Origin: Desulfosporosinus sp. | GTDB lineage: Bacteria; Bacillota; Desulfitobacteriia; Desulfitobacteriales; Desulfitobacteriaceae | NCBI GenBank assembly: GCA_031292095.1 | Contig: JARLHU010000234.1 | Coordinates: 1 to 64,000, forward strand | Reading direction: 5' to 3' | DNA: 64,000 nucleotides | Shown here: positions 16,673 through 60,217 of the stretch, one piece after another | How positions within the stretch are numbered: position 1 is the first letter of the stretch | Layout of the letters: every line of letters starts with the position of its first letter | The notes under the pieces: model-generated | The model's input: only the letters and a program-made list of their open reading frames with translations | Databases searched by the model: none | What the model was told of the DNA's origin: nothing | Translations under genes and position numbers: made by a program

Positions 16673-19429
16673 ATGTTGCATAAAGGATCGATCAAGCTGA
16701 ACATAACTCAAAAACTGCTTATTTATATACTGTTAGCCTGTGTGGTTCCTCTGGCCTTCTTTGGCAGGATGTCCTATGACAAGGCAAAGCTGAACTTACA
16801 GAACGAGATCAATAAATCTTCGGTGTACACTATGCAGGAAAAACAACGTCAGTTAGAGATCATTATGGAAGAGGTCGAAGGGTTGATAGCCAACCTTTCA
16901 AGTATAGAAGATATCAAAGCTGTGTTGGCAAATAATGAGAATGGCAGCACTGATTTCGAACGATTGGCTACTCAAGCTAAAATTGGGTATTTGCTGAGCA
17001 ATTTTACGAATCTTAAAGGGCTGATCTCGATTGATATCTACTCCTTAAAAGGTGAGCACTATCATGTAGGGGATACCTTGGACGTACAGGAAATTAATAT
17101 AGAGGCTAAAAACGCTTTATATAATGAGGTGTTGAATTCAGGAAAACCCGTCTTATGGCAAGGTGTTGAAGATAATATTAACCTGAAGTCAAAAAACAAA
17201 AAGGTCATTGTGGTCGGAAAAATTCTAAAAAGCTTGGATCTGAATACTTACACAGAAAAGCCAATCGGCTTGCTGATCATTAATTACGATCTTAATGTTT
17301 TTTATAATCAATTCTCAGATGCAAATCAAGAGACAGAATTTATGATTTTAGATCGTAACAATAGAATAGTATATCATCCGGATCAGTCTAGGATTGGAAG
17401 TATCCCGGATGGAGAATTGCTTAAAAAGATCAACTCCAATTCCAGCAGTTTTAAGGCGAACGTTGAAGGTGAAAGCAAGCTGGTTTATTGGGATAAGTCA
17501 AATAAGAACTCCTGGACTCTTCTGGCACTGATATCGGAACAAAGTATTTCCGATAAGGTTCAAAATATTAGAATCAATAATGCTGTGTTCTTAAGTATTT
17601 CTTTTTTCTTCGTATTAATATTTGCCCTTGTCATTTCCAAAAGAATAGTCGGGCCCATTAAGAAGATTACGAACTCTTTCCGGGAAATTCAAGAGGGTAC
17701 GATCAACTTTGAGACGCGTTTGCAAGTAACGTCCGATGACGAAATTGGCGATTTATGTAATTGGTTCAATGAATTTATCCAAGGTCTCGAATTTAAACGA
17801 AAGACAGAACTGGAATTAAGGCAAGCCAAGGAAGCAGCTGAGGCTGCAGTTATTGCTAAAAGTCAGTTTCTGGCGAACATGTCCCATGAAATAAGGACAC
17901 CGATGAATGGGATCGTCGGTTTTATCGAACTACTTTCTCAGATGCCTTTGGAAAGGGAACAAGCAAGTTATTTGACCGAGATTAAGGCCTCGACAGATGC
18001 GCTACTATTATTAATTAATGAGATCTTGGATTATTCAAAAATTGAAGCCGGGATGTTATTGATTGAGACGATTCCGTACAATCTGCATACGCTTGTGGAA
18101 GACGTGGTTTCTTTATTTTCACCAAAAGCGCACGGCAAGGGTATTGAAATTATTTCATACATAGCGACAGGTGTTCCAAGTGAGGTTACGGGGGATCCTG
18201 GCAGACTTAGACAAGTCTTAATGAACATCATAGGCAACGCTGTCAAATTCACAGATGCAGGCGAAGTAGAGATCAGAGTAAAGTTATTGCAAGAAAGCAA
18301 CGAAAACGTGCAGTTACAGTTTGAAATTCAGGATACCGGTATCGGGATCTCCGCGGAAACTAAGGAAAAGTTGTTCCAAGTTTTTATGCAAGCTGATGCG
18401 TCGACAACACGAAAGTATGAAGGAACGGGCCTTGGTCTTGCAATTTCCAAAAAAATCATCGAGCTAATGGGTGGTAAGATTGATGTTATCAGTGCGCCGG
18501 ATCAAGGCAGCACCTTCATCCTTACGTTAGAACTGGAAAAAAGGCAACCTGACGACCAGGAACAGAAATATAAGCTCCCTAAGCCCGAGAACCTGGATAC
18601 TTTAACCGTCATGATCGTCGATGATAATGAAAGCAATCGAATGATCTTTCGCGAATATCTCGGTGAGACCGGGTGCCGGGTGATAACCGCTAGTGATGGC
18701 GTTGAAGGGCTCGGAATGCTTGCTAGGCTAGCAACTGAAACTTTACCTCAAATTGTCCTTGTGGACTACATGATGCCTGGATTGAATGGTTATGAATTTG
18801 CAGAACAACTTTTGCAGGATAAAAGGTATAAGGAGCTGAGGCTGATTTTGATTACCTCCGCTGCCCAGAAAGGAGATGCCAAGTTAGCCCAAACGATTGG
18901 ATTCTCTGGATATCTTTCAAAGCCTGTAAGAAAAAGGGAGTTAATTGACGTTATCTCTGGCGTGGTCGCTTTAGAACCTCGAGAGAAAATGGTAAATTTA
19001 ATAACGAGACATTCGATGATCGAAGAGCATCGGTTAGTGAAAAATATTAGAATCCTGCTCGTTGAAGACATGGTATCTAATCAACGCTTAGAGATGATCA
19101 TGTTAAAAAAACTTGGCTATTCCGTGGACCTAGCTACCAATGGAAAACAAGCTGTCGAGATCTGCAATACAGAAAAATACCAGATTATTTTAATGGATTG
19201 TCAAATGCCTGTAATGGACGGCTATGAAGCGACCGCACAAATCAGGAGGACGAGTTTAATGAATAGGAACACGACCGTCATTGCGATGACCGCCCATGCC
19301 ATGGAGGGAGATCGAGAAAAATGTCTCGAGGCCGGCATGGACGACTATATTAGCAAACCGATCACTTTGGCAATCCTCGAGGAGACACTTGAGAAATATT
19401 TGAATGGGGTAACTTCCGATACCTTTTAA
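16673..19429 (+). CDS. Hybrid sensor histidine kinase (extracytoplasmic sensor, HAMP, HisKA, HATPase, two REC domains)
   Basis: [57 protein letters not shown] motifs [10 protein letters not shown] and [10 protein letters not shown]. Confidence 0.95.
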
Positions 19430-19449
19430 CGTTCGACGGGAGGAATATA

Positions 19450-21123
19450 ATGGCAGAGAAAAACTGTGTTTTGATTGTCGATGATAGTTTAGCGGGGCGG
19501 AACGTTCTAAATGCAATCTTAAAGCAAGAAGGATATCAAATCGAATTTGCAGTTGATGGCAGAGAAGCGCTTGAAAAATCTATTGAGCTTAAGCCGGATT
19601 TAGTACTCTTAGATGTCATGTTGCCCGATATGGACGGATTTGAGGTCTGTAGCATGATTAGAGATAATCCCTATACCTCGTTAATGCCCGTGATCATGGT
19701 AACCGCCCTCGATGATCGAACTTCAAAACTAGAAGGGCTTCGGTCGGGGGCGGATGAATTTCTTAGTAAACCACTGGATGCTTTGGAAGTTAAGGCTCGG
19801 GTAAGTACGGTGCTCAAACTTGATCGTTTTAGACGATTACTTTATGATCGGACCACGGGACTGCCTAATGAGATGCTTTTCGTTGATTATATCGATAATA
19901 GAATGATTAAACGAAGTGAAACTGGGCTAGGATTTGCTGTGTTTGCTATAAAATTAAGCAATTCGATGTTTTTAAATAATTACCTTTCTAAAATTAATGA
20001 TCAGCAAATGATGCAAAGTCTCCTGAAAAATTTCCAAAACGAACAGGTCGACGTGAAAATAATTTCCTATAATCGGGAAGGGTATTTCACTGTGTTACTA
20101 AATAGAGCAGAACCCGATAAGGCCTTCAGCTTTGCCGAAGAGCTCATCCTTGCTTTTAGCAGACCCGTAAAATATTTTGAGGGTGAAATGCTACTCTCTT
20201 GTAAAATTGGGATTTCGTTATATCCTGAAAATGGTTCTACAGGAAATGAGCTGATCAATAACGCCCGCTTAGCGTATGAAGTAAATCACAATGAAAAATT
20301 CAGTATTCGTTTTTTTGATCAAGACCTCGAAATAACCTGCAAAGAAAATGTCGAGATCGCTGCTAATCTCTATAACGCGATTGATAAGAAAGAATTTATT
20401 CTCCACTATCAGCCACAGGTCAGGGTCGATAACCGAGAAATAATCGGAATAGAAGCCCTCATCAGGTGGGATAGTAAGAAATATGGTTTTGTATTTCCGG
20501 ATTTTTTTATTCCACGGGCCGAGGAGAATGGAACGATCATCAGTATAGGTAATTGGGTTATTGAGGACTCGATGAGGTATTTAGCGAAACTGACCCAGAC
20601 AAAGAGGATCACAATTAATGTATCCATCAATGTATCTGCTCTGCAATTTGATGATCCGTGCTTGGAAAGTAAGATCTCGAATCTGGTGAAGGCGTTTGAG
20701 TTGGATCCAGAAAGGATAAAAATCGAACTCACAGAAAGTGCTATAATGGTTAATCATAACGAATCACTAAAGAAGATGAGAGTCCTCAAGGAAAAAGGTT
20801 TTAAGTTATCGATCGATGATTTCGGAACAGGTCAAGCGTCGTTAGCCTATCTGAAAGATTATCCGGTCGATGAAATTAAAATTGACAAAGCTTTCATTCG
20901 AAACTTTGTCAATCAGAAGGTTGATTATGAGATCGTCAAACATATCATTGAACTGGCCCATACCTTAAATATGATTGCAGTCGCTGAAGGGGTGGAAGAA
21001 GAAGTGCAGGTTACCTTACTTGAAGACCTCGGTTGCGACGTTATCCAGGGGTATTATTTCAGTAGGCCCGTTGGTGAAAACGAGATGAGTCAATTGCTCG
21101 TAACTCAACCCTATCGAAAATAG
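19450..21123 (+). CDS. Response regulator with degenerate GGDEF and EAL domains
   Basis: REC LVLLDVMLPDMDGFEV; EAL HYQPQVRVDNREIIGIEALIRW; IDDFGTGQASLAYLKDYPVDEIKID. Confidence 0.92.
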   Translation: MAEKNCVLIVDDSLAGRNVLNAILKQEGYQIEFAVDGREALEKSIELKPDLVLLDVMLPDMDGFEVCSMIRDNPYTSLMPVIMVTALDDRTSKLEGLRSGADEFLSKPLDALEVKARVSTVLKLDRFRRLLYDRTTGLPNEMLFVDYIDNRMIKRSETGLGFAVFAIKLSNSMFLNNYLSKINDQQMMQSLLKNFQNEQVDVKIISYNREGYFTVLLNRAEPDKAFSFAEELILAFSRPVKYFEGEMLLSCKIGISLYPENGSTGNELINNARLAYEVNHNEKFSIRFFDQDLEITCKENVEIAANLYNAIDKKEFILHYQPQVRVDNREIIGIEALIRWDSKKYGFVFPDFFIPRAEENGTIISIGNWVIEDSMRYLAKLTQTKRITINVSINVSALQFDDPCLESKISNLVKAFELDPERIKIELTESAIMVNHNESLKKMRVLKEKGFKLSIDDFGTGQASLAYLKDYPVDEIKIDKAFIRNFVNQKVDYEIVKHIIELAHTLNMIAVAEGVEEEVQVTLLEDLGCDVIQGYYFSRPVGENEMSQLLVTQPYRK

Positions 21124-23670: not shown

Positions 23671-24109
23671 GGCGAAGCCAACCGGATGATCGCGGAGGCA
23701 GGGATCGAAAGGTCGTCTCTGAGGAAAGTCCGAGCTCCATAGGGCAAGGTGCTGGGTAACGCCCAGTGGGGGGAACCCCAAGGAAAGTGCAACAGAGAGA
23801 TACCGCCAAACAGAGGCCAGTCTTCAGAGGCCAGAGGTCAGAATTAGTTGGATCTAATACGGCATCTGGCTTCTGACGACTGACCTCCGGATTGGTAAGG
23901 ATGGAAAGGCGAGGTAAGAGCTCACCGGCAGTCAGGCGACTGGCTGGCCATGTAAACCCCACCTGGAGCAAGACTGAATAGGGGAACTATGAACGGCCCG
24001 TTTTCGTTCCCGGGTAAGGTCGCTAGAGGCCGTCGGTAACGGCGGTTCGAGACAGATGATCATCACCTCCAGAGGGAGGAACAGAACTCGGCTTATAGGT
24101 TGACTTCGC
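23671..24109 (+). ncRNA. rnpB: RNase P RNA
   Basis: gaggaaagtccgagctcc hallmark; terminal pairing gcgaagccaacc/ggttgacttcgc; acagaactcggctta. Confidence 0.95.
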
Positions 24110-24182
24110 ATTATATTTCATAGTTATGGGAAACTGGATATATAATTATACATGAGCTCTTTTTTGGTTACTCACTATAGTT

Positions 24183-24220
24183 GACAAGAAGCGGCAGGTT
24201 TATACCTGCCGCTTCTTGTC
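24183..24220. terminator. Perfect 17-bp inverted repeat gacaagaagcggcaggt-ttat-acctgccgcttcttgtc
   Basis: Direct reading; no clear T-run. Confidence 0.6.
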
Positions 24221-24353
24221 GTTCACAGGTTTTATGGTAACTTCTCCGTGAGGCGTTGGCGAGGGATGTTATAAACTCATCGATTCGGATGAAATCAGGC
24301 TGATCATCGGGGCAAGATGATGCGAGAAATTGAGCAAACGCAACTAAAAGATG

Positions 24354-24767
24354 TTAGAAATATTCAGTAAGAAATGCTTCAGGATTAATTGCCTTAACTG
24401 GCGAATCAACAAAATCCTTTAGATTACGAGTAATAATTAATTCGAGTTTTTTCCGTTTAGCACACGTAGCCAATAAAGCGTCCTCATAATCTTCCATGGG
24501 TAAACTTACTGCTCTTTCGCAATCTCCTTTAGTGACCTCAATAATGTCTAATATATTGAAAAAATCTATAAGTACATGTTTAGCTTTTTCACTATCGCGA
24601 TAATACTTTTTGAGGAAATAAAATATATCTGTGACTTGGTTAGCAGTTATAAATCCATTCAGTTTTTCTTCCGAGATAAATAACAATATCTTTTCTGCAA
24701 AAATATTATGAGGATGTCGGTTTAAACCTGCATCAAGTACCACATTTGTATCAATCAGTACATTCAT
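24354..24767 (-). CDS. PIN domain toxin (VapC-like)
   Basis: MNVLIDTNVVLDAGLNR...MEDYEDALLATCAKRKKLELIITRNLKDF. Confidence 0.88.
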   Translation of the reverse strand: MNVLIDTNVVLDAGLNRHPHNIFAEKILLFISEEKLNGFITANQVTDIFYFLKKYYRDSEKAKHVLIDFFNILDIIEVTKGDCERAVSLPMEDYEDALLATCAKRKKLELIITRNLKDFVDSPVKAINPEAFLTEYF

Positions 24768-24999
24768 ACTTCTGCAATCTCTCCTCTTTTAATTGTTCTG
24801 CGGTTACATCATCATTCGTTCCATCCGAAAGAGAACCAAAGAATGATTTCATTTTATTAATCTTTTCGTCTATCGAAGGTTTAGCAGGGCATAATTTTAC
24901 AACGCTTTTCCCATTTTTATTAATAATGATTTCAGATTCTTCAGCTAGTGCTAAATATTTTCCAACATTTAATTTAAATTCAGTTGCGGTAATAATCAT
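24751..24999 (-). CDS. Phd/YefM-type antitoxin paired with PIN toxin
   Basis: MIITATEFKLNVGKYLALAEESEIIINKNGKSVVKL; overlaps toxin start. Confidence 0.8.
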   Translation of the reverse strand: MIITATEFKLNVGKYLALAEESEIIINKNGKSVVKLCPAKPSIDEKINKMKSFFGSLSDGTNDDVTAEQLKEERLQKYECTD

Positions 25000-25277
25000 A
25001 AGCTTTTACCCCATTTCTTACCTTATCTAATATTATTATAACAAAATCGATCGAAATTGCAAATGAGTTTTCGTGCGATAGAAGCACCTTTGTGTCGCTG
25101 GCGCCTTTTTGTAGCATTGCCATTCCAGTTGCGACAAAGTTTGTAAATATCTGATTGCATGGTATGAGCATAATCCTTAGATATAAAAATTAGTGCGCAT
25201 CATTCATGGGTGCAATAAAGGATAAGTTCGAATTGTGTAGAATTAACTATAAAAATGATCAACTGAGGTGGAGAGTA

Positions 25278-28200
25278 ATGGGGTTGCCGGAAGTAATTCG
25301 GGTAGATAAAAGTAAGTGTCAGCATTGTCTCGCTTGTATTCTAGTTTGTCCAGTCAAATTGTGCAATATTGTCGAGCCGGACGGTATTACAGTTAAAGCG
25401 GATCTTTGTATTGGTTGTGGCGAGTGCATTAAGGCGTGCAGAGAAAAGGGTCACTTTGCTCGTTCTGGGATCGACGATTTTTCCGATTTTCTAAGTGATA
25501 TTGAATCAGGGGTTCCTGTAGGGATAATAGTTGCACCTGCGGCAGCTGTAAATTATGCTGAATTGATGCCTAACATGCTTACTGCGTTACGTGAAATCGG
25601 TGTTTATAATGTTTTTGACGTAAGTTTTGGGGCGGAAATCACAACTTATCTCTACTTACAGGCCTTGAAAAACGGTGCTCAGCAGCCAATTATTGCTCAG
25701 CCCTGCCCGGCTGTGGTTAGTTTTATCGAGATATACCAGACAGAGCTCATACCATTTTTAGCACCTACACACTCACCAGCGCTTGATGTAGCGATTTGGC
25801 TTAAAAACCAGCCCGAATTTAGCCACTTAAAACTAGCTTTCCTTGGACCCTGCTTCGCTAAGCGTAGGGAGTTCCACGACCCAAATACTGGAGGAGTAGT
25901 TTCTTATAATATAACTTTTGAGTCCTTGGATAATTATCTTTCAGAGCAAGGAATCAACTTAGCAGAGTTAGAACCTTCTGGGTTTGACACTCCGGAGGCC
26001 GAAAGGGGTATTGGTTATTCTCAGCCGGGTGGCTTAACGGACACATTCAACCGTTTTGGCATACCGTTGAAAAAGTCTGATATCCAAAGAATAGAAGGAC
26101 CTCAAGAAGTATACACAAAATATTTGCCAGAACTTAAAGAGGATATTCTTCGTAGCGAAGCGCCCGTACTTATAGACGTCCTAAACTGTTTGCATGGTTG
26201 CAGCGTTGGACCTGCGATTACTCATCATCGTACTCAGTATCAAATCGATAAGATTATTGAGAAACGCAAAGAAGATCAAATGATTAAACATAATAGTGCA
26301 AGTCATGAAAGTGCTAAAAATCTATTTAAGGATTTCTATGCTTGGATCGATGCCCAAGACATAGATTTTTCAAGGGTTTATTCCGATAAGTCAGCCAATA
26401 AACATTTGAGTGATCCAGAAGACGAAGCAGCAGAAGAGCAAATCTGGGAGCTAATGCATAAGCTTACCCCTGAAGAACGTAAGATTAATTGCTCCTCATG
26501 TGGTTATGGCAATTGTCAGGGCATGATGTTAGCGATTCTTAATGGGCTCAATCATAGAGAAAGCTGTAAATACTACTTGTTTAAAGAAAACGAACGTAAT
26601 CTAAGAAATGTCGAAGCGCAGACGGTTGAAATTGAAGAAGCAAACACTGAACTAGAACTATTAAATGATGGTTTGGAACAGACCGTAGCATTAAGGACCC
26701 AGTCTATTAGAAATTTGCTTGATAACGCGGGGCAAGGGTTTCTTTCGTTTGGGTCAGATTTATTAATTCATAATGAATACAGTTCTGAGTGTACTAAGAT
26801 TTTTGGTCGAGATATTCACGGACTTAGGTTTACTCAGTTGATCTTTGCGGATGATCTTGAGCAAGAAAATTTTCTGGAGTCCTTATTAGTTAAGGTTTTG
26901 GATAATAACGACCCTTTGTTCCGCGAAATTTATCTACCGTTGCTTCCGGTAGAAGTAACGATCGACAGTAGAATTATTAGTATTGACTATAAATTAATTG
27001 ATTCTGCCAATGGCATAGAAAGTTATTATATGGTCATCTTGACAGATATAACGAATCATCGAACCTTAGAAACTAAGATCGAGCTAGAGCGAAATTTGCT
27101 TAAAATGGTTGTTAATGTTGTCTTGAATTATGTTGACTTTAATCAAACGACCAAAGAATATACTCATTTCTGTGAAACACGCCTGCAAGAAATTTTAAAT
27201 AATAAGGCAACCTTAGTCGATAAAGTGACTGAGATTTTCAGGCATATCCACACGTTTAAAGGAAGTTTTGCTCAATTAGGTTTGAGAAATGTAGTGACTA
27301 ATTTACATGACTTAGAAACTGAAATTGAAATGCTAAAGAAAAATCTAGTGTCGCACGAATTTACTCTTTTCGATGTTGAAGTCTTTTTTACAGAATTTTC
27401 ATTACTCACTTGGTTAGATGAAGACATAGCTGGATTACATGATATCTTAGGTCAGGACTTTTTCTCTAAAGACGATGAATTAGTTATTAATGGCAACAAA
27501 TTGGCAGAGATCGAAAAGAAAATAGAAACAATTCTTACTCCTGTCGAGTGTAAAATACTTATTCCTGAATTGCGTAAACTTCGTTATAAATCCTTTGATT
27601 ATCTGTTGAAATCCTACCCAGAGTATGTGGCGAATCTGGCCGAAAGGTTGGAGAAGTCGGTTTATATGTTAATCAAACAAGAGGACCAAATATTTGTTAA
27701 CCCTGATCGATTCTTTGACTTTGCGAGATCTCTTGTTCACATTTTCCGAAATGCTGTAGATCATGGACTTGAATCAGGAGATGAGCGCTTAGAAGAGGGG
27801 AAAGAGGAATTCGGTAAAATAACGTGTTCGATTTCAGAGACGGAAAAACAGGTTTGCTTATCCATTACCGATGATGGTCGTGGAATTGACGCTAGAAATC
27901 TGCGTAATAAGGCTATGGATAGCGGGTTGAGAACCAGGGAAGAAGTAAATCTAATGACTGATGAGGAAGCTATCCAACTTATATTTGAGGATGGTTTATC
28001 TACTAAAGATGATGTCGACGACTTATCGGGTCGCGGAGTTGGTTTAGCAGCAGTATTGAGTGAGCTGAATAAACTTGGGGGTTCAGTAGTAGTTAAAACG
28101 GAGTTAGGTGTCGGAAGTGAATTTTATTTTTGCCTACCCAAAGAGACGGAGGAAGCTTGGGAAGTAACTATTTCAGAATTGATGCAACCACTCGTTGATA

Positions 28201-28658
28201 CAACAAGCAAATTTATGTTGGAGCAAACAGACTTACTTGTTACCTGTGAAAAGAATTTCCAAGTTGAAGGGATCAAGAAAATTGAACTTAATAAAATAAC
28301 GGCAATTATTAATATCAAGGGAGCACTGGAAATTGTCGTCATTGTCAGTTTTTCTGAACCGGTTTTGCGGAAGCTTGTACGTAATTTCGTTTTGGATGAA
28401 ATTACACTGGAAGAAGAAGAAGCGTATATGGAAGATGTTCTTGGCGAAGTTGTCAATATTATTATTGGTAATTCATTGAAACAGTTTCCTGGACTTGAGG
28501 AGCTGTTGATTCTTGATCCACCAATATCACTTTCTTCGGAAGATGCGCTATTTAGATACAAAGACTCTCAGATTTGGGGTTGTAACTTGCAGACAGAGCT
28601 AGGAAATATTAGTTTGAATTTGGTAATGCCTAGGGGTACTAAAATAATAAATAAGTAG
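25278..28658 (+). CDS. Ferredoxin - [FeFe]-hydrogenase-like H-cluster domain - FeS - PAS - Hpt - CheA-like ATPase - CheX/CheC-like fusion protein (ORF open from 25206)
   Basis: CQHCLACILVCP + CIGCGECIKACR; IIAQPCPAVVSFIEIY, LGPCFAKRREF, LNCLHGCSVG; CSSCGYGNCQG; HTFKGSFAQLG; FRNAVDHGLE, DDGRGID, GRGVGLAAV; DVLGEVVNIIIGN. Confidence 0.88.
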   Translation: MGLPEVIRVDKSKCQHCLACILVCPVKLCNIVEPDGITVKADLCIGCGECIKACREKGHFARSGIDDFSDFLSDIESGVPVGIIVAPAAAVNYAELMPNMLTALREIGVYNVFDVSFGAEITTYLYLQALKNGAQQPIIAQPCPAVVSFIEIYQTELIPFLAPTHSPALDVAIWLKNQPEFSHLKLAFLGPCFAKRREFHDPNTGGVVSYNITFESLDNYLSEQGINLAELEPSGFDTPEAERGIGYSQPGGLTDTFNRFGIPLKKSDIQRIEGPQEVYTKYLPELKEDILRSEAPVLIDVLNCLHGCSVGPAITHHRTQYQIDKIIEKRKEDQMIKHNSASHESAKNLFKDFYAWIDAQDIDFSRVYSDKSANKHLSDPEDEAAEEQIWELMHKLTPEERKINCSSCGYGNCQGMMLAILNGLNHRESCKYYLFKENERNLRNVEAQTVEIEEANTELELLNDGLEQTVALRTQSIRNLLDNAGQGFLSFGSDLLIHNEYSSECTKIFGRDIHGLRFTQLIFADDLEQENFLESLLVKVLDNNDPLFREIYLPLLPVEVTIDSRIISIDYKLIDSANGIESYYMVILTDITNHRTLETKIELERNLLKMVVNVVLNYVDFNQTTKEYTHFCETRLQEILNNKATLVDKVTEIFRHIHTFKGSFAQLGLRNVVTNLHDLETEIEMLKKNLVSHEFTLFDVEVFFTEFSLLTWLDEDIAGLHDILGQDFFSKDDELVINGNKLAEIEKKIETILTPVECKILIPELRKLRYKSFDYLLKSYPEYVANLAERLEKSVYMLIKQEDQIFVNPDRFFDFARSLVHIFRNAVDHGLESGDERLEEGKEEFGKITCSISETEKQVCLSITDDGRGIDARNLRNKAMDSGLRTREEVNLMTDEEAIQLIFEDGLSTKDDVDDLSGRGVGLAAVLSELNKLGGSVVVKTELGVGSEFYFCLPKETEEAWEVTISELMQPLVDTTSKFMLEQTDLLVTCEKNFQVEGIKKIELNKITAIINIKGALEIVVIVSFSEPVLRKLVRNFVLDEITLEEEEAYMEDVLGEVVNIIIGNSLKQFPGLEELLILDPPISLSSEDALFRYKDSQIWGCNLQTELGNISLNLVMPRGTKIINK

Positions 28659-28671
28659 GGGGGCAGTTGAA

Positions 28672-30171
28672 ATGGCTCGTATTTTAGTGGTAGACGATTC
28701 GAAAATAATGCGTAAAAATATATCTCTCATTTTAACTAAAGCAGGGCATGAAGTTGTAGGTGAAGCAGAGGATGGTGGAGAAGCGCAGCTTATGTACAGA
28801 ACTCATTTGCCAGATCTAGTAACTATGGACATTACTATGCCTGGTATTAATGGAATTGACGCCGTTAGACTCATAAGGGAGGAGTACCCAAACGCTAAAA
28901 TAATTATGGTGAGTGCTCTGTCGCAAAGAAACATGGTTTTTGATGCTTTAGAACAGGGTGCTAAGCATTACTTAATTAAACCTATCTCCTATGATTCTGT
29001 CGTAACTGTTGTGCAAAAGGTTTTGGGTGTTGATGCAGGTAAAAAAGTACCAATTCAAAACCCAGAACCAACAACTCAACCACCCTTTGCAATTGAGGCT
29101 ATGAATAATACGTTCCAGATTAAAATAACAAAATTTTTAACTGAAGAAAACTTCATATTATTAAACCAAGCTGTGCAAGGGCTTTTATATGTAAAACCGC
29201 TTAATGCTACGATTGATTTTGGTAATATCGAGTCCTTTCCACTTTCCTTACTCGAAAAGATTAGCAGCATAGTAAAAGCTATGAAAGCTGTGAATGGGGT
29301 TATTAAAGTAGTTGCTACAAACGCTGACTTTATCCAACTATTGATGTATCAAAAAATTGATGGGCTTTTAGATCATCTTACCACCAAATTAAGCACTAGC
29401 TCTGCAGGGGCAGATAAGACAAGTTGCGTTGCTATAGTTGAGTCTTATTCTGTTTTATCTAAGTTATTTCCTCCAGAACATAAGCAGTATTCTTCAGATT
29501 CACCTGGACCTACAGATAATTTAATCTATCTGAAAAAAACTACCTGTCCCGTATGTGGAAAATCCATTGAGCTACAAGTTGTACGATATACTAAATTAGC
29601 TATTGATAAAACTGACCTTGACTCTCGAAGGCATTTTGTTGGCATTGAACCACTTTGGTACAGTGTCCAAATTTGTCCGCACTGTAAGTATGCCAATATG
29701 ATCGAGGATTTTGATAAGATTACTGAAAAAGCAAAAAGCTTAATTCCACAAAAACTTTCTGAACTCAAGTATGAAATAAATGGTGACTTCACTACAGAAC
29801 GTACTATAGATCAAGTATTTACACTATATTATCTAGCGTTACACTGCATAGAGGGATTAAATAATAAGTCCCTAGAAAGTAAGTTGTGGTTACGATTAGC
29901 TTGGCTATACGATGATGTAGCTGAGTCGGAGTTATCTAAAATGGCTGCAGAAAAGGCTTTAATTCTCTACAAAGAGCTATTTCAAAACAGTAGAAATCAG
30001 AGCACAGTTGAACAGGACCAGCATATGACCATGTTACTGGCTGAACTTTGTGTGCGCATTGGTTTAATGACTGAAGCTCAGCAATATTTTCGTGATAGCG
30101 TTGTCCATAAAGGCGGAAACAAAGTATTGAATGAAACGGCGAGAGACCGGATGCATGATATTCGTGCATAA
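28672..30171 (+). CDS. Response regulator: REC - STAS-like - DUF2225-like zinc-binding C-terminus
   Basis: ILVVDDSKIMRKN...VTMDITMPGINGIDAV..KPISYDS; TCPVCGKSIE...RHFVGIEPLWYSVQICPHCKYANM. Confidence 0.85.
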   Translation: MARILVVDDSKIMRKNISLILTKAGHEVVGEAEDGGEAQLMYRTHLPDLVTMDITMPGINGIDAVRLIREEYPNAKIIMVSALSQRNMVFDALEQGAKHYLIKPISYDSVVTVVQKVLGVDAGKKVPIQNPEPTTQPPFAIEAMNNTFQIKITKFLTEENFILLNQAVQGLLYVKPLNATIDFGNIESFPLSLLEKISSIVKAMKAVNGVIKVVATNADFIQLLMYQKIDGLLDHLTTKLSTSSAGADKTSCVAIVESYSVLSKLFPPEHKQYSSDSPGPTDNLIYLKKTTCPVCGKSIELQVVRYTKLAIDKTDLDSRRHFVGIEPLWYSVQICPHCKYANMIEDFDKITEKAKSLIPQKLSELKYEINGDFTTERTIDQVFTLYYLALHCIEGLNNKSLESKLWLRLAWLYDDVAESELSKMAAEKALILYKELFQNSRNQSTVEQDQHMTMLLAELCVRIGLMTEAQQYFRDSVVHKGGNKVLNETARDRMHDIRA

Positions 30172-30208
30172 GTAAACATTATTTCGAGAAAACTAAAGCG
30201 CAATCAAC

Positions 30209-30250
30209 TTTAAGATCAGTTGACTATAGATAGGTTGACTGATCTTAAAA
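30209..30250 (+). terminator. tttaagatcagt...actgatcttaaaa hairpin
   Basis: 12-bp stem after response regulator gene. Confidence 0.6.
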
Positions 30251-30275
30251 ATTCAACTCAAGGAGTTCTAATTCT

Positions 30276-30659
30276 ATGAATCTTACCTCGGAAGTACGTC
30301 CGTTAATCGTCGCGTTGTTTTCAATATTACTAGGCGCTACTGGGCAATTTCTCTTTCGTCTGGGAATGTTACATTATGGTAAGGTAACGGTAACCGGGAT
30401 TTGGCGACAACTAGGATCGATTATTTTAACTCCGGCTATTTTCATAGGTTTTATCTGTTTTGGGGTTAGCTCCATCCTCTGGTTGGTAGTAATTTCACGC
30501 TGGGAGCTTAGCTATGCGTATCCGCTGGTAGCTTTAGGATATGTGATGGCCATACTTTATGGCACTTTGCTCCTCCATGAAAAGCTTAGCTTAGCGAAGA
30601 TCTCGGGAAGTTGTTTGATTATGGCGGGGATAAGTGTTTTGGGACTATGGAGAGGCTAA
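30276..30659 (+). CDS. EamA/SMR-type small multidrug-transporter-like membrane protein
   Basis: 4 TMs, GATGQFLFRLGML..., WELSYAYPLVALGYVMAILYGTLLLHEKLS. Confidence 0.8.
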   Translation: MNLTSEVRPLIVALFSILLGATGQFLFRLGMLHYGKVTVTGIWRQLGSIILTPAIFIGFICFGVSSILWLVVISRWELSYAYPLVALGYVMAILYGTLLLHEKLSLAKISGSCLIMAGISVLGLWRG

Positions 30660-46918: not shown

Positions 46919-47123
46919 ATATATATCTCGACAATCTTTAACAAGAAACTATATACGGTTTTCCAACTTGATGCTAGTATTAGAAAATAAGAGTTAAATA
47001 GAAGTTGATGCTTATTTTGGAGGAATTCTAACAAATGATGGCGAATGAAAGTATATAGTTGGGTTTAGGTGATGTGCGGAATTAGATTGTTGAATGGGTT
47101 CAAAAAGATTGGAGGGTCAAGGG

Positions 47124-49286
47124 ATGGGTCAGGATGACAACATAAACCTGGGGGTCGATTTGGGAGAGTTTCTAGAATTTTACCTCTTAGACTCTCAAGA
47201 GCAGATTGATAGACTGGGAGCAGGGCTTTTACAACTGGAGAAAGAGGGAGGAAATATCGGGCTCATTAACGATCTTTTCCGCTCTGCTCATAGTTTGAAG
47301 GGGGCTTCAGGGACCATGGGGTTCACCCCGATTGTGGCGATGACCCATGCAGCCGAAGACTTATTGGATAATTTACGACAGGGGAAAATGGATGTTTCTT
47401 TGGAAATGATTGATGTTTTATTAGCAGTGACAGACCGAGTCAAAGCGATGTTGACTCAAGTGGAGTTACGTCAGGAGATCACGGTTGGGTTCGAAGATTT
47501 AGTCTCCTCCATGAGGGGGGTATTAGCGGGCGAAAAGCCGGTGGCAGTAGTGAGTCCGCAGATTATTCCAGTGACAGAGGAAGTTGCTTTGGAGAATTTC
47601 GTTGCGCTTGATTTTTCTCTCACTCAATTCGAAAGTGAAAAAGTTAACAATGCTCAGCTTATGGGGCATGGCATTTATCAGGTGGAGGTGCAACTCGAGT
47701 CAGGTACGCTGATGAAGGCGGTACGTGCTGTGATGGTGACCCAGCGGCTGGAGGGAATGGGCACTGTAGTCAAACTTTTACCTAGTATTGAGGATTTGGA
47801 AGTTGGAAATGCCGAGGGTTTCGCCTTACTCGTTATCAGTGATGAGTTGAGCGGAGAGATGCAGCGGGAAGTGTTAGGGATTTCTGAAGTGGAAGCTGTC
47901 ATGATCCATTCCTATCCGGTGGCTGACCTCCTTATAGAAGTCGAGTCAATTAGACCTGAAGTAAGTGCTGACCTTGTGATGGAAGAGAAACCGTCCCCTT
48001 CGTCTTTCCAGCCGAGTCCAGTTGTCGAACCGAAGGGGACAGGCATCGGCGCTCCCGCTCCAGTTACCGAAGCTGCGAATGGAGAAGGGAATACCCAAGT
48101 ACATACCATTCGAGTGGACACGGTGCGGATGGATAATCTCATCAATTTAGTCGGAGAGATGGTCATTACTCGGACCCGCTTGGTGCAAATCGGTTTGGAT
48201 CTGAAGGCTCAGTACCGTATGGACAATATGGTTAATAATTTGAACGAGGCCAACGTTTATTTGGGACGTTTGATGAATGACTTACAAGAGAGTGTCATGC
48301 GCCTGCGCATGGTGGCGATTGGGACGGTATTTGGTCGTTTCCCCCGCTTAGTCCGGGATCTTGCTAAGAAAACAGGCAAGGAGATTGACTTGGTTTTAAA
48401 AGGGGAAGACACTGAGCTGGATAAAACGGTCGTGGAAGTGATTGGGGATCCTTTAATGCACCTGATTCGAAATGCGGTGGATCATGGGATTGAATCTCCG
48501 GAGGTGCGTCGCGAGGCAGGTAAGCCGGAGGTGGGCACGATTACGCTGGATGCCTATCATGAAGGAAACCACATTGCGATTCTGATCTCGGATGACGGGG
48601 CGGGGTTACCCCTCGATAAAATTCGGAATATTGCAGTTGCCAAAGGTCTGATCGGAGAGAGTGAGGAACTTTCGGAACGTGATATTTCAAACCTCATCTT
48701 CTTGCCGGGTTTTAGCACCGCTGATACCGTGACCGATATTTCCGGGCGGGGTGTGGGGATGGATGTGGTGAAAAAGGCCCTGAACAATCTCGGGGGAATG
48801 GTGGAGATTACGACTCGTAAAGGGAAGGGAAGCACCTTTACTATACGGTTGCCCTTGACCTTGGCGATCATTCAGGCTCTCCTCGTAGAAGTAGGAGAAG
48901 AGATCTATGCGGTGCCACTTTCCTCCGTTTTAGAGACCCTGCTGGTCAATCGGGTGGAGATTAAAACCGTCGGGGGGTTGCCGATGGTTCAATTGCGTGG
49001 GAATACTTTACCACTGATTTCTTTACAAGAGAAGTTTGGTCTGCCGGCTCCAGAAACTGTCAGTAGTGAGGTTTTTGTGGTTGTTGTGGGTTTTGGAGAT
49101 AAAGCCTTGGGGCTCATTGTGGACGAATTGCGCGGACAGCAGGAAGTTGTCATCAAGTCCTTGGGCGATTTTCTGAATAATCTACCCGGGATTGCCGGCG
49201 CAACGATTCTCGGAGATGGCAAAGTTACGTTAATTCTCGATATTGGATCACTTATTCAAGACGTCTTAGTCACGCGCAAAGCGTAG
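47124..49286 (+). CDS. cheA: Chemotaxis sensor kinase CheA (ORF open from 47094)
   Basis: SAHSLKGASGTMGF; LIRNAVDHGIESPE; DISGRGVGMDVVKKAL; CheW-like C-terminus. Confidence 0.97.
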   Translation: MGQDDNINLGVDLGEFLEFYLLDSQEQIDRLGAGLLQLEKEGGNIGLINDLFRSAHSLKGASGTMGFTPIVAMTHAAEDLLDNLRQGKMDVSLEMIDVLLAVTDRVKAMLTQVELRQEITVGFEDLVSSMRGVLAGEKPVAVVSPQIIPVTEEVALENFVALDFSLTQFESEKVNNAQLMGHGIYQVEVQLESGTLMKAVRAVMVTQRLEGMGTVVKLLPSIEDLEVGNAEGFALLVISDELSGEMQREVLGISEVEAVMIHSYPVADLLIEVESIRPEVSADLVMEEKPSPSSFQPSPVVEPKGTGIGAPAPVTEAANGEGNTQVHTIRVDTVRMDNLINLVGEMVITRTRLVQIGLDLKAQYRMDNMVNNLNEANVYLGRLMNDLQESVMRLRMVAIGTVFGRFPRLVRDLAKKTGKEIDLVLKGEDTELDKTVVEVIGDPLMHLIRNAVDHGIESPEVRREAGKPEVGTITLDAYHEGNHIAILISDDGAGLPLDKIRNIAVAKGLIGESEELSERDISNLIFLPGFSTADTVTDISGRGVGMDVVKKALNNLGGMVEITTRKGKGSTFTIRLPLTLAIIQALLVEVGEEIYAVPLSSVLETLLVNRVEIKTVGGLPMVQLRGNTLPLISLQEKFGLPAPETVSSEVFVVVVGFGDKALGLIVDELRGQQEVVIKSLGDFLNNLPGIAGATILGDGKVTLILDIGSLIQDVLVTRKA

Positions 49287-59029: not shown

Positions 59030-60217
59030 ATGCTCTCCCAGCAAGAGATTGACGAGTTGCTGCGAGGTACACTAGAACCAGACCTGGAGACATCGTCCCA
59101 GGAGAATCTTTTAGATGAGATTGAAAGAGATACCCTTGGAGAAATTGCTAATATTTCAATGGGCACCGCGGCAACGACGTTATCTCAGCTTTTAGGTAAG
59201 AAAGTGGATATTACCACGCCGAAAGTTGACTTAACGACCTCGGAACAGATTCGCAAGGATTATCCGATCCCTTCCGTTATTTGTGATGTCAAATACAAAG
59301 CAGGGATTGAAGGCTCAAACCTTTTGATTCTTTCCCAGCGAGACGGTTCGGTTATTGTGGACTTGATGATGGGGGGGGACGGTAAAAACCCGTCCCCAGA
59401 ACTCTCTGAGCTTCAGATTAGTGGGATTTCTGAGGCTATGAACCAGATGATGGGGTCAGCGGCCACCTCCATGTCGACCATGTTTCAAACTAAGGTCGAT
59501 ATTACTCCACCTGATTTAGTGCTCAATGATTTGGCAGATGGGCGAGATATCATTCAAGAGTTCCTTTCACCGGATGAGCCCCTTGTGCAGATCTCCTTTC
59601 GGATGATCGTAGAGGACGTTATAGACAGTATTCTGGTGCAAGTGCTCCCGTTGAGTGTTGCTAAAGGGATGGTCAACAAGTTGATGAGTGTGATGAACGG
59701 TGGGTCTGAGGTAGCTCCGGCAGCACAAGCGACTCCCACTTATCAGTCGCCTCCACCGCCGATAGCGATGCCTTATCAAACTCAACCACCTTCACCACCT
59801 GCTTCTTATGACGCACCGCCCTATACGATGCCAAGCGGCTATCCCCCTTATGGGATAGCACCGGGCAATACTCAAGGCAATACTCAAGCCAGAACGCAGA
59901 TGCCAGTTCAACCTGCCCAGTTTGCACCGCTCCAATTCGGACAGCCCCTGACCCAGCCGGATAATCTCAATTTGATTTTAGACGTTCCTTTACAAATCAG
60001 TGTAGAATTGGGCCGCGCCAAAAAAACCATTAGAGAAATTTTAGAAATGGGCCCTGGGTCAATCATTGAACTGGATCGCCTAGCCGGTGAATCGGTGGAT
60101 ATGATTGTTAATGGCAAATTGATCGCCAAATGTGAGGTTGTTGTCATTAATGAGACGTTTGGGATTCGGGTGACAGATATTATTAATCCGGTAGAACGGA
60201 TGAATTCATTGAGATAG
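59030..60217 (+). CDS. fliY: Flagellar motor switch phosphatase FliY (CheC-like + FliN C-terminus)
   Basis: LSQQEIDELL; DTLGEIANISMGTAATTLS; C-term LDVPLQISVELGRAKKTIREILEMGPGSIIELDRLAGE. Confidence 0.95.
   Translation: MLSQQEIDELLRGTLEPDLETSSQENLLDEIERDTLGEIANISMGTAATTLSQLLGKKVDITTPKVDLTTSEQIRKDYPIPSVICDVKYKAGIEGSNLLILSQRDGSVIVDLMMGGDGKNPSPELSELQISGISEAMNQMMGSAATSMSTMFQTKVDITPPDLVLNDLADGRDIIQEFLSPDEPLVQISFRMIVEDVIDSILVQVLPLSVAKGMVNKLMSVMNGGSEVAPAAQATPTYQSPPPPIAMPYQTQPPSPPASYDAPPYTMPSGYPPYGIAPGNTQGNTQARTQMPVQPAQFAPLQFGQPLTQPDNLNLILDVPLQISVELGRAKKTIREILEMGPGSIIELDRLAGESVDMIVNGKLIAKCEVVVINETFGIRVTDIINPVERMNSLR

Follow-up and report, generated by a model that had tools for sequence, protein, structure and literature searches.

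The window, a 64,000-nucleotide stretch of a Desulfosporosinus sp. contig, holds at 25278..28658 a gene encoding a 1126-aa protein in which hydrogenase, FeS, PAS-like, Hpt, CheA-P4 and CheX parts are fused; the organism carrying it is a sulfate-reducing-type bacterium. All features of this gene and of its downstream neighbour lie on the + strand. The longest ORF around the gene spans 25206-28658 (1150 aa), and residue numbers of the fusion protein (C38, His682, Glu1081 etc.) follow the numbering of that 1150-aa frame. A start at 25206 has no ribosome-binding site and is not conserved; the ATG at 25278 was preferred, being preceded by a ribosome-binding site (GAGGTGGAG, 25265..25273) and coding for the Met at which relatives begin to align with the protein. 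Pfam orders the domains as ferredoxin motifs, hydrogenase H-domain, Hpt, HATPase_c and CheX, and the matches to Fer4 (3.9e-8), Fe_hyd_lg_C (4.9e-31), Hpt (2.2e-5), HATPase_c (9.2e-15) and CheX (2.1e-12) all exceed the curated cut-offs. Every motif quoted in a preliminary description of this DNA was found in the protein, and the Pfam HMMs accepted rather than rejected the Hpt, CheA-type HATPase_c and CheX calls. The proposal that [FeFe]-hydrogenase-like, CheA-type and CheX-type parts are joined in one ORF was thus borne out, by Pfam and by full-length relatives.

Searches that included an alignment-based scan of genome contigs recovered the full fusion in at least 10 further genomes from several Bacillota families, a count that allows for some records being duplicate genomes. 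Full-length relatives within the genus are G028 (91% identity), G014 (66%), G005 and G027, and outside the genus they were found in Gracilibacteraceae (G056 / L066) and in Thermincolaceae and other families (G092, G176, G287; L062, L063), at 54-57%. The fusion gene is in pieces in G029 and is split in L064 (9971-11587), a Soudan mine bin in which a transposase gene (490 aa) interrupts it close to where the Hpt region begins. In comparison with G028, dN/dS was 0.12 for the whole chain, 0.06 for the hydrogenase part and 0.12 for CheX, and remained below 0.2 in every domain; the whole chain is under purifying selection. A chance or assembly-error fusion was ruled out, because full-length relatives exist in several families at 54-91% identity and the overall dN/dS is low.

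The N-terminal half carries two 4Fe-4S ferredoxin motifs (C38, C41, C44, C48 and C68, C71, C74, C78; 25296..25457), matched by Pfam Fer4 and invariant in the alignments, followed by an [FeFe]-hydrogenase H-domain (25524..26213) that scores 108.7 bits with PF02906 against a curated cut-off of 22.1. The AlphaFold model, built from seven sequences, was poor in the hydrogenase half (pLDDT mostly below 50), so that the H-domain was assigned from sequence. A residue table identified the H-cluster cysteines as C167, C216, C328 and C332. All four had been reported as present, and they are indeed retained in 46/46 aligned hydrogenases; across the fusion proteins they are invariant together with the accessory FeS cysteines. 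At positions corresponding to C299, M353 and M497 of CpI, the protein has Pro166, Gly214 and Leu326. The replacement of the proton-relay Cys by Pro, which had been noticed earlier, is general in the clade (40/40 sensory members examined), and these 40 members have Gly or Ser at the M353 position and Leu at M497. As HydDB sensory sequences have Pro at the proton-relay position in about 10% of cases and usually carry small residues at M353 (PMC10055695), Pro at C299 and a small residue at M353 are known variations.

A C-terminal FeS site, Cx2Cx4Cx16C (C429, C432, C437, C454; 26490..26567), was recognised from its motif: the PF04060 score (17.8 bits) falls under the 23-bit cut-off, but the four cysteines are nonetheless invariant in the alignments, and a motif of equal spacing has been described in TmHydS and TamHydS (PMC8163306). 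A long helix, predicted at low confidence and likely to form a coiled coil (26568..26702), leads from this site to a PAS-like region (26703..27065) with an NLLxNAGQGFLSFG signature common to related kinases. This region had no Pfam match; its assignment is based on predicted secondary structure and on conservation in the alignment. The same genome encodes the maturases HydF and HydG, so that cofactor loading of the fusion protein would be possible, and it also encodes catalytic-type [FeFe] hydrogenases.

The output half starts with a P1-like Hpt domain (27081..27353; PF01627, pLDDT 82-91), in which the predicted phospho-acceptor His682 (codon 27249-27251, in RHIHTFKG) is invariant among the aligned fusion proteins and related kinases. 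It is followed by a CheA-type P4 ATPase (27576..28145; PF02518) with the motifs FRNAVDHGLE, DDGRGID and GRGVGL, for which CheA ranks first in the PDB sequence comparison (5.5e-30) and also in the fold search. The chain ends in a CheX-type phosphatase domain (28203..28640) that scores 47.4 bits with PF13690 against a cut-off of 27, and whose profile matches solved CheX structures, best 3HZH (2.7e-5). Its predicted catalytic residues Glu1081 (28446-28448) and Asn1084 (28455-28457) form an E-x2-N pair that aligns with the pair of 3HZH and is invariant in CheX-tailed forms. The CheC/CheX/FliY phosphatase signature read earlier at the C terminus was therefore confirmed by PF13690, by the 3HZH alignment and by a fold match to 3hm4. 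In phosphatases of this kind, an Asn and an acidic residue are inserted into the receiver active site (PMC3035606). Compared with CheX of Borrelia burgdorferi (3HZH), the fusion protein shares the E/N pair and the fold, but its CheX forms part of a kinase chain and is not a stand-alone protein. A separate phosphatase of the CheX superfamily, a CheC-like/FliMN-C protein of the FliY type, is encoded in the flagellar cluster of the window (59030-60217).

The Hpt phospho-acceptor and the P4 ATPase are homologous to those of CheA, but the P3-like stretch is shortened, the sensor is in the same chain and CheX is added at the end. In Pfam, P2 and P5 were absent from the fusion protein, with no match to CheW PF01584; the window's own CheA (47094-49286) does carry P2 and P5 and matches CheW. 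The P5 CheW-like domain of CheA provides the coupling to receptors; lacking P2 and P5, the fusion protein therefore has no known way into chemoreceptor arrays. The survey of CheX-fused homologues, besides the full fusions described above, yielded the CheX-tailed kinase on a dCache-HAMP sensor (L084 409-3492 and L085 1477-4554; 43% identical over kinase and CheX). In these membrane proteins the PAS-like/Hpt/CheA-P4/CheX architecture is independent of hydrogenase, so that sensor and output are separable modules. In CheX-less forms of the PAS-like/Hpt/P4 kinase the N-terminal regions differ, and one of them gives a weak match to CBS.

The next gene encodes a response regulator (28672..30171; Pfam, alignment and model), which consists of a receiver domain with phospho-acceptor Asp53 (28681-29013; Pfam and alignment), a modelled alpha/beta domain with a STAS-like order of elements (29086-29385) and DUF2225, a domain of unknown function (29527-30156; Pfam). 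A receiver gene follows directly, and in the same direction, in all fusion loci examined (9/9), with D8, D9, D53, S81 and K103 invariant in the nine partner receivers, and the fusion protein probably controls this adjacent regulator. Partner outputs vary: most loci have the alpha/beta domain, Thermincola has GGDEF (REC-GGDEF, one lineage), and DUF2225 is found only in the window and in its nearest relative, G028. For the middle domain, nothing credible was obtained from Pfam at E up to 10, and the best 50 matches of a fold search with the regulator model were all to the receiver; the label STAS-like is a guess from the element order in the model.

Of the nine fusion loci, eight have GGDEF genes no farther than about 8 kb away, whereas the genome-wide density (26 in 4.59 Mb) predicts about 0.1 per 17 kb. 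Since four of these eight loci share one inherited arrangement and the GGDEF match in the window itself is weak, the association comes down to few independent cases and is no more than suggestive. Upstream in the window (16673-21123), a dCache hybrid histidine kinase with two receivers is preceded by a periplasmic sugar-binding-type protein and followed by a receiver-GGDEF(weak)-EAL protein.

In the hydrogenase tree, the CheA-CheX members lie beside MCP fusions (L070-L073) and HisKA-REC fusions (L047-L049), a proximity which shows output swapping on one sensor. GGDEF-EAL outputs occur on more distant hydrogenase relatives. The organism's own genome (contig C127, L050 8505-11126, - strand) encodes a second sensory-type [FeFe] hydrogenase, of 873 aa, fused to GGDEF and EAL, which would tie H2 directly to c-di-GMP; a sensory-type [FeFe] hydrogenase with a GGDEF/EAL fusion was seen in L041 too. 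In HydDB a c-di-GMP-type link is given for [NiFe] group 2c, not for [FeFe] (PMC5037454). Soluble hydrogenase-MCP fusions are present in many relatives (L042 5080-6987, L048 4970-6895, L070-L073, L086, L088-L090); the one in L042 is convergent with, and adjoins, the CheA-CheX hydrogenase pair. In two genomes, group D-like hydrogenases are encoded directly beside hydrogenase-MCP fusion genes (L090 3207-4319, L092 2934-4241).

Among known systems, the putative sensory [FeFe] hydrogenases of group C (HydS of Thermotoga maritima and Ruminococcus albus) are similar in having two ferredoxin clusters, the Cx2Cx4Cx16C FeS site, a PAS-like domain and, in most members, an H-domain without the proton-relay Cys. 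The fusion protein has the group C order 2x[4Fe-4S] - H-domain - Cx2Cx4Cx16C FeS - PAS, with PAS recognised by secondary structure only; it differs in that the chain also contains a CheA-type kinase and CheX, and it has Leu and Pro where TmHydS has Ser (M497) and Ala (C299). The assignment to group C as HydS-like in the preliminary description therefore held for domain order, while the tree, which included neither T. maritima HydS nor TamHydS, separates the fusion clade from R. albus HydS (99/100), with long branches that make its deep placement unsure. Likewise, the clade branches apart from the genome's own group A-like and B-like enzymes and from group D-like sequences. Group D TamHydS has the same four-cysteine C-terminal FeS motif and Leu at M497 (PMC8163306), but it has neither a PAS domain nor a fused output. 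By contrast, the fusion protein does have a PAS-like region, and it did not group with the TamHydS-like stand-ins for group D, picked by Ala/Ser/Leu at C299/M353/M497, which fall outside the fusion clade.

HydDB divides sensory [FeFe] hydrogenases into C1 (histidine-kinase-linked), C2 (chemotactic, MCP-linked) and C3 (phosphatase-linked) (PMC5037454). The fusion protein recalls C1 in tying a hydrogenase to a histidine kinase and C2 in having MCP fusions as close sequence relatives; C1, however, is described as histidine-kinase-linked only, and we found no mention of an Hpt/CheA-P4 or CheX output in that description (PMC5037454). Nor did we find a CheA/CheX-fused [FeFe] hydrogenase described in the literature searched, which left most subscription journals outside. 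What is new with respect to the HydDB classes is that a single chain combines an Hpt/CheA-P4 kinase with a CheX phosphatase and has a receiver dedicated to it.

A single-chain kinase/phosphatase switch, as first proposed, is the most economical reading of the sequence, joining a sensory-type hydrogenase module, a phosphotransfer kinase and a CheX-type phosphatase. We consider it reasonably likely that the protein is a soluble, H2- or redox-controlled kinase that carries its own phosphatase for the neighbouring regulator. The fusion would be a cytoplasmic, single-chain two-component sensor in which the hydrogenase module binds H2 at the H-cluster, or in which the redox state of the FeS chain is read out, and the signal would alter the FeS/PAS-like/helix connector so as to shift the balance of two opposing activities. 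On one side, the CheA-type ATPase would phosphorylate the Hpt histidine, from which the phosphate would pass to the adjacent regulator; on the other, the CheX domain would strip phosphate from the regulator's receiver. As the output domains of the regulator differ between species, its output points to an adaptive lifestyle or gene control, not direct flagellar switching, and is probably tied to c-di-GMP. TmHydS and TamHydS, which likewise lack these proton-relay residues, are nevertheless active (PMC10055695, PMC8163306). Some observations count against the proposal. The M497L exchange in CpI blocks proper diiron incorporation (PMC10055695), and the fusion protein has Leu at this position, as does TamHydS (PMC8163306). 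In addition, the C-terminal FeS cluster of TamHydS gave no response to H2 (PMC13104023).

The FeS chain and H-cluster could instead report the ferredoxin/NADH redox state or an inhibitory gas (CO/O2), with kinase and phosphatase parts working in the same way but H2 not being the physiological signal. The three accessory 4Fe-4S sites and the PAS-like region would suit such a general sensor and, with the proton-relay Cys replaced by Pro throughout the clade (40/40), H2 turnover is not expected to be fast. However, all H-cluster ligands are kept, the hydrogenase part is very strongly constrained (dN/dS 0.06), and H2 turnover persists in sensory hydrogenases without that Cys (PMC10055695, PMC8163306); we regard this alternative as rather unlikely, though worth keeping in view.

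The preliminary description had also suggested a chemosensory role with a possible link to motility. A kinase that passes phosphate to a CheY controlling the flagellar motor could be imagined from the protein's CheA-type P4, Hpt and CheX domains, from the MCP domains fused to related hydrogenase modules and from the cheR, motAB, flagellin and cheA genes nearby (at about 31.4 kb and beyond, the window holds flagellar and chemotaxis genes). The pair sits as an insertion between rnpB (23674-24111) and an EamA gene (30276), which is followed by cheR, motB and motA. This slot (24111-30276) is variable in the genus: it is empty in G014, where trmK-nif3-rnpB-EamA-cheR are contiguous, and is occupied by other genes in G028, a genome that carries its orthologous pair (91%) elsewhere, on a different contig. 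Flagellar proximity is thus incidental, and a motility link drawn from it was dropped; in the loci examined, flagellar genes were not found beside other copies of the pair. With P2 and the P5/CheW-like domain absent as well, and with a neighbouring receiver that bears extra output domains or GGDEF and often has GGDEF genes nearby, the link to motility was not upheld, and action on the flagellar motor seems improbable. A degenerate hydrogenase domain without H-cluster, serving only as FeS scaffold or partner-binding domain, would fit the weak PF02906 score (about 108 bits, versus 336-340 bits in the catalytic-type enzymes of the same genome) and the changes at the C299, M353 and M497 positions, but is very improbable given the conserved H-cluster cysteines, the same or similar replacements in TmHydS and TamHydS, where the H-cluster works (PMC8163306, PMC10055695), and the HydF and HydG maturases.

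Returning to the kinase/phosphatase switch, a more specific version, put forward tentatively and at somewhat short of even chances, is that H2 binding at the H-cluster would toggle one chain between phosphorylating (CheA/Hpt) and dephosphorylating (CheX) a single dedicated regulator, within a modular H2-sensor family in which a common type of hydrogenase module is connected to chemoreceptor, hybrid kinase and c-di-GMP outputs. What sensory [FeFe] hydrogenases do physiologically has been described as unclear or unknown (PMC10055695, PMC8163306, PMC13104023), because the H2-binding domain has not been linked to an output that can be measured. In this case two adjacent genes encode the sensor, the kinase, the phosphatase and the receiver, so that H2-dependent phosphorylation would be measurable in one test tube, and the fusion protein offers a way to test what sensory hydrogenases signal. 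The family also points to repeated use by anaerobic Bacillota of one type of hydrogenase module, in chemoreceptor, kinase and c-di-GMP signalling alike.
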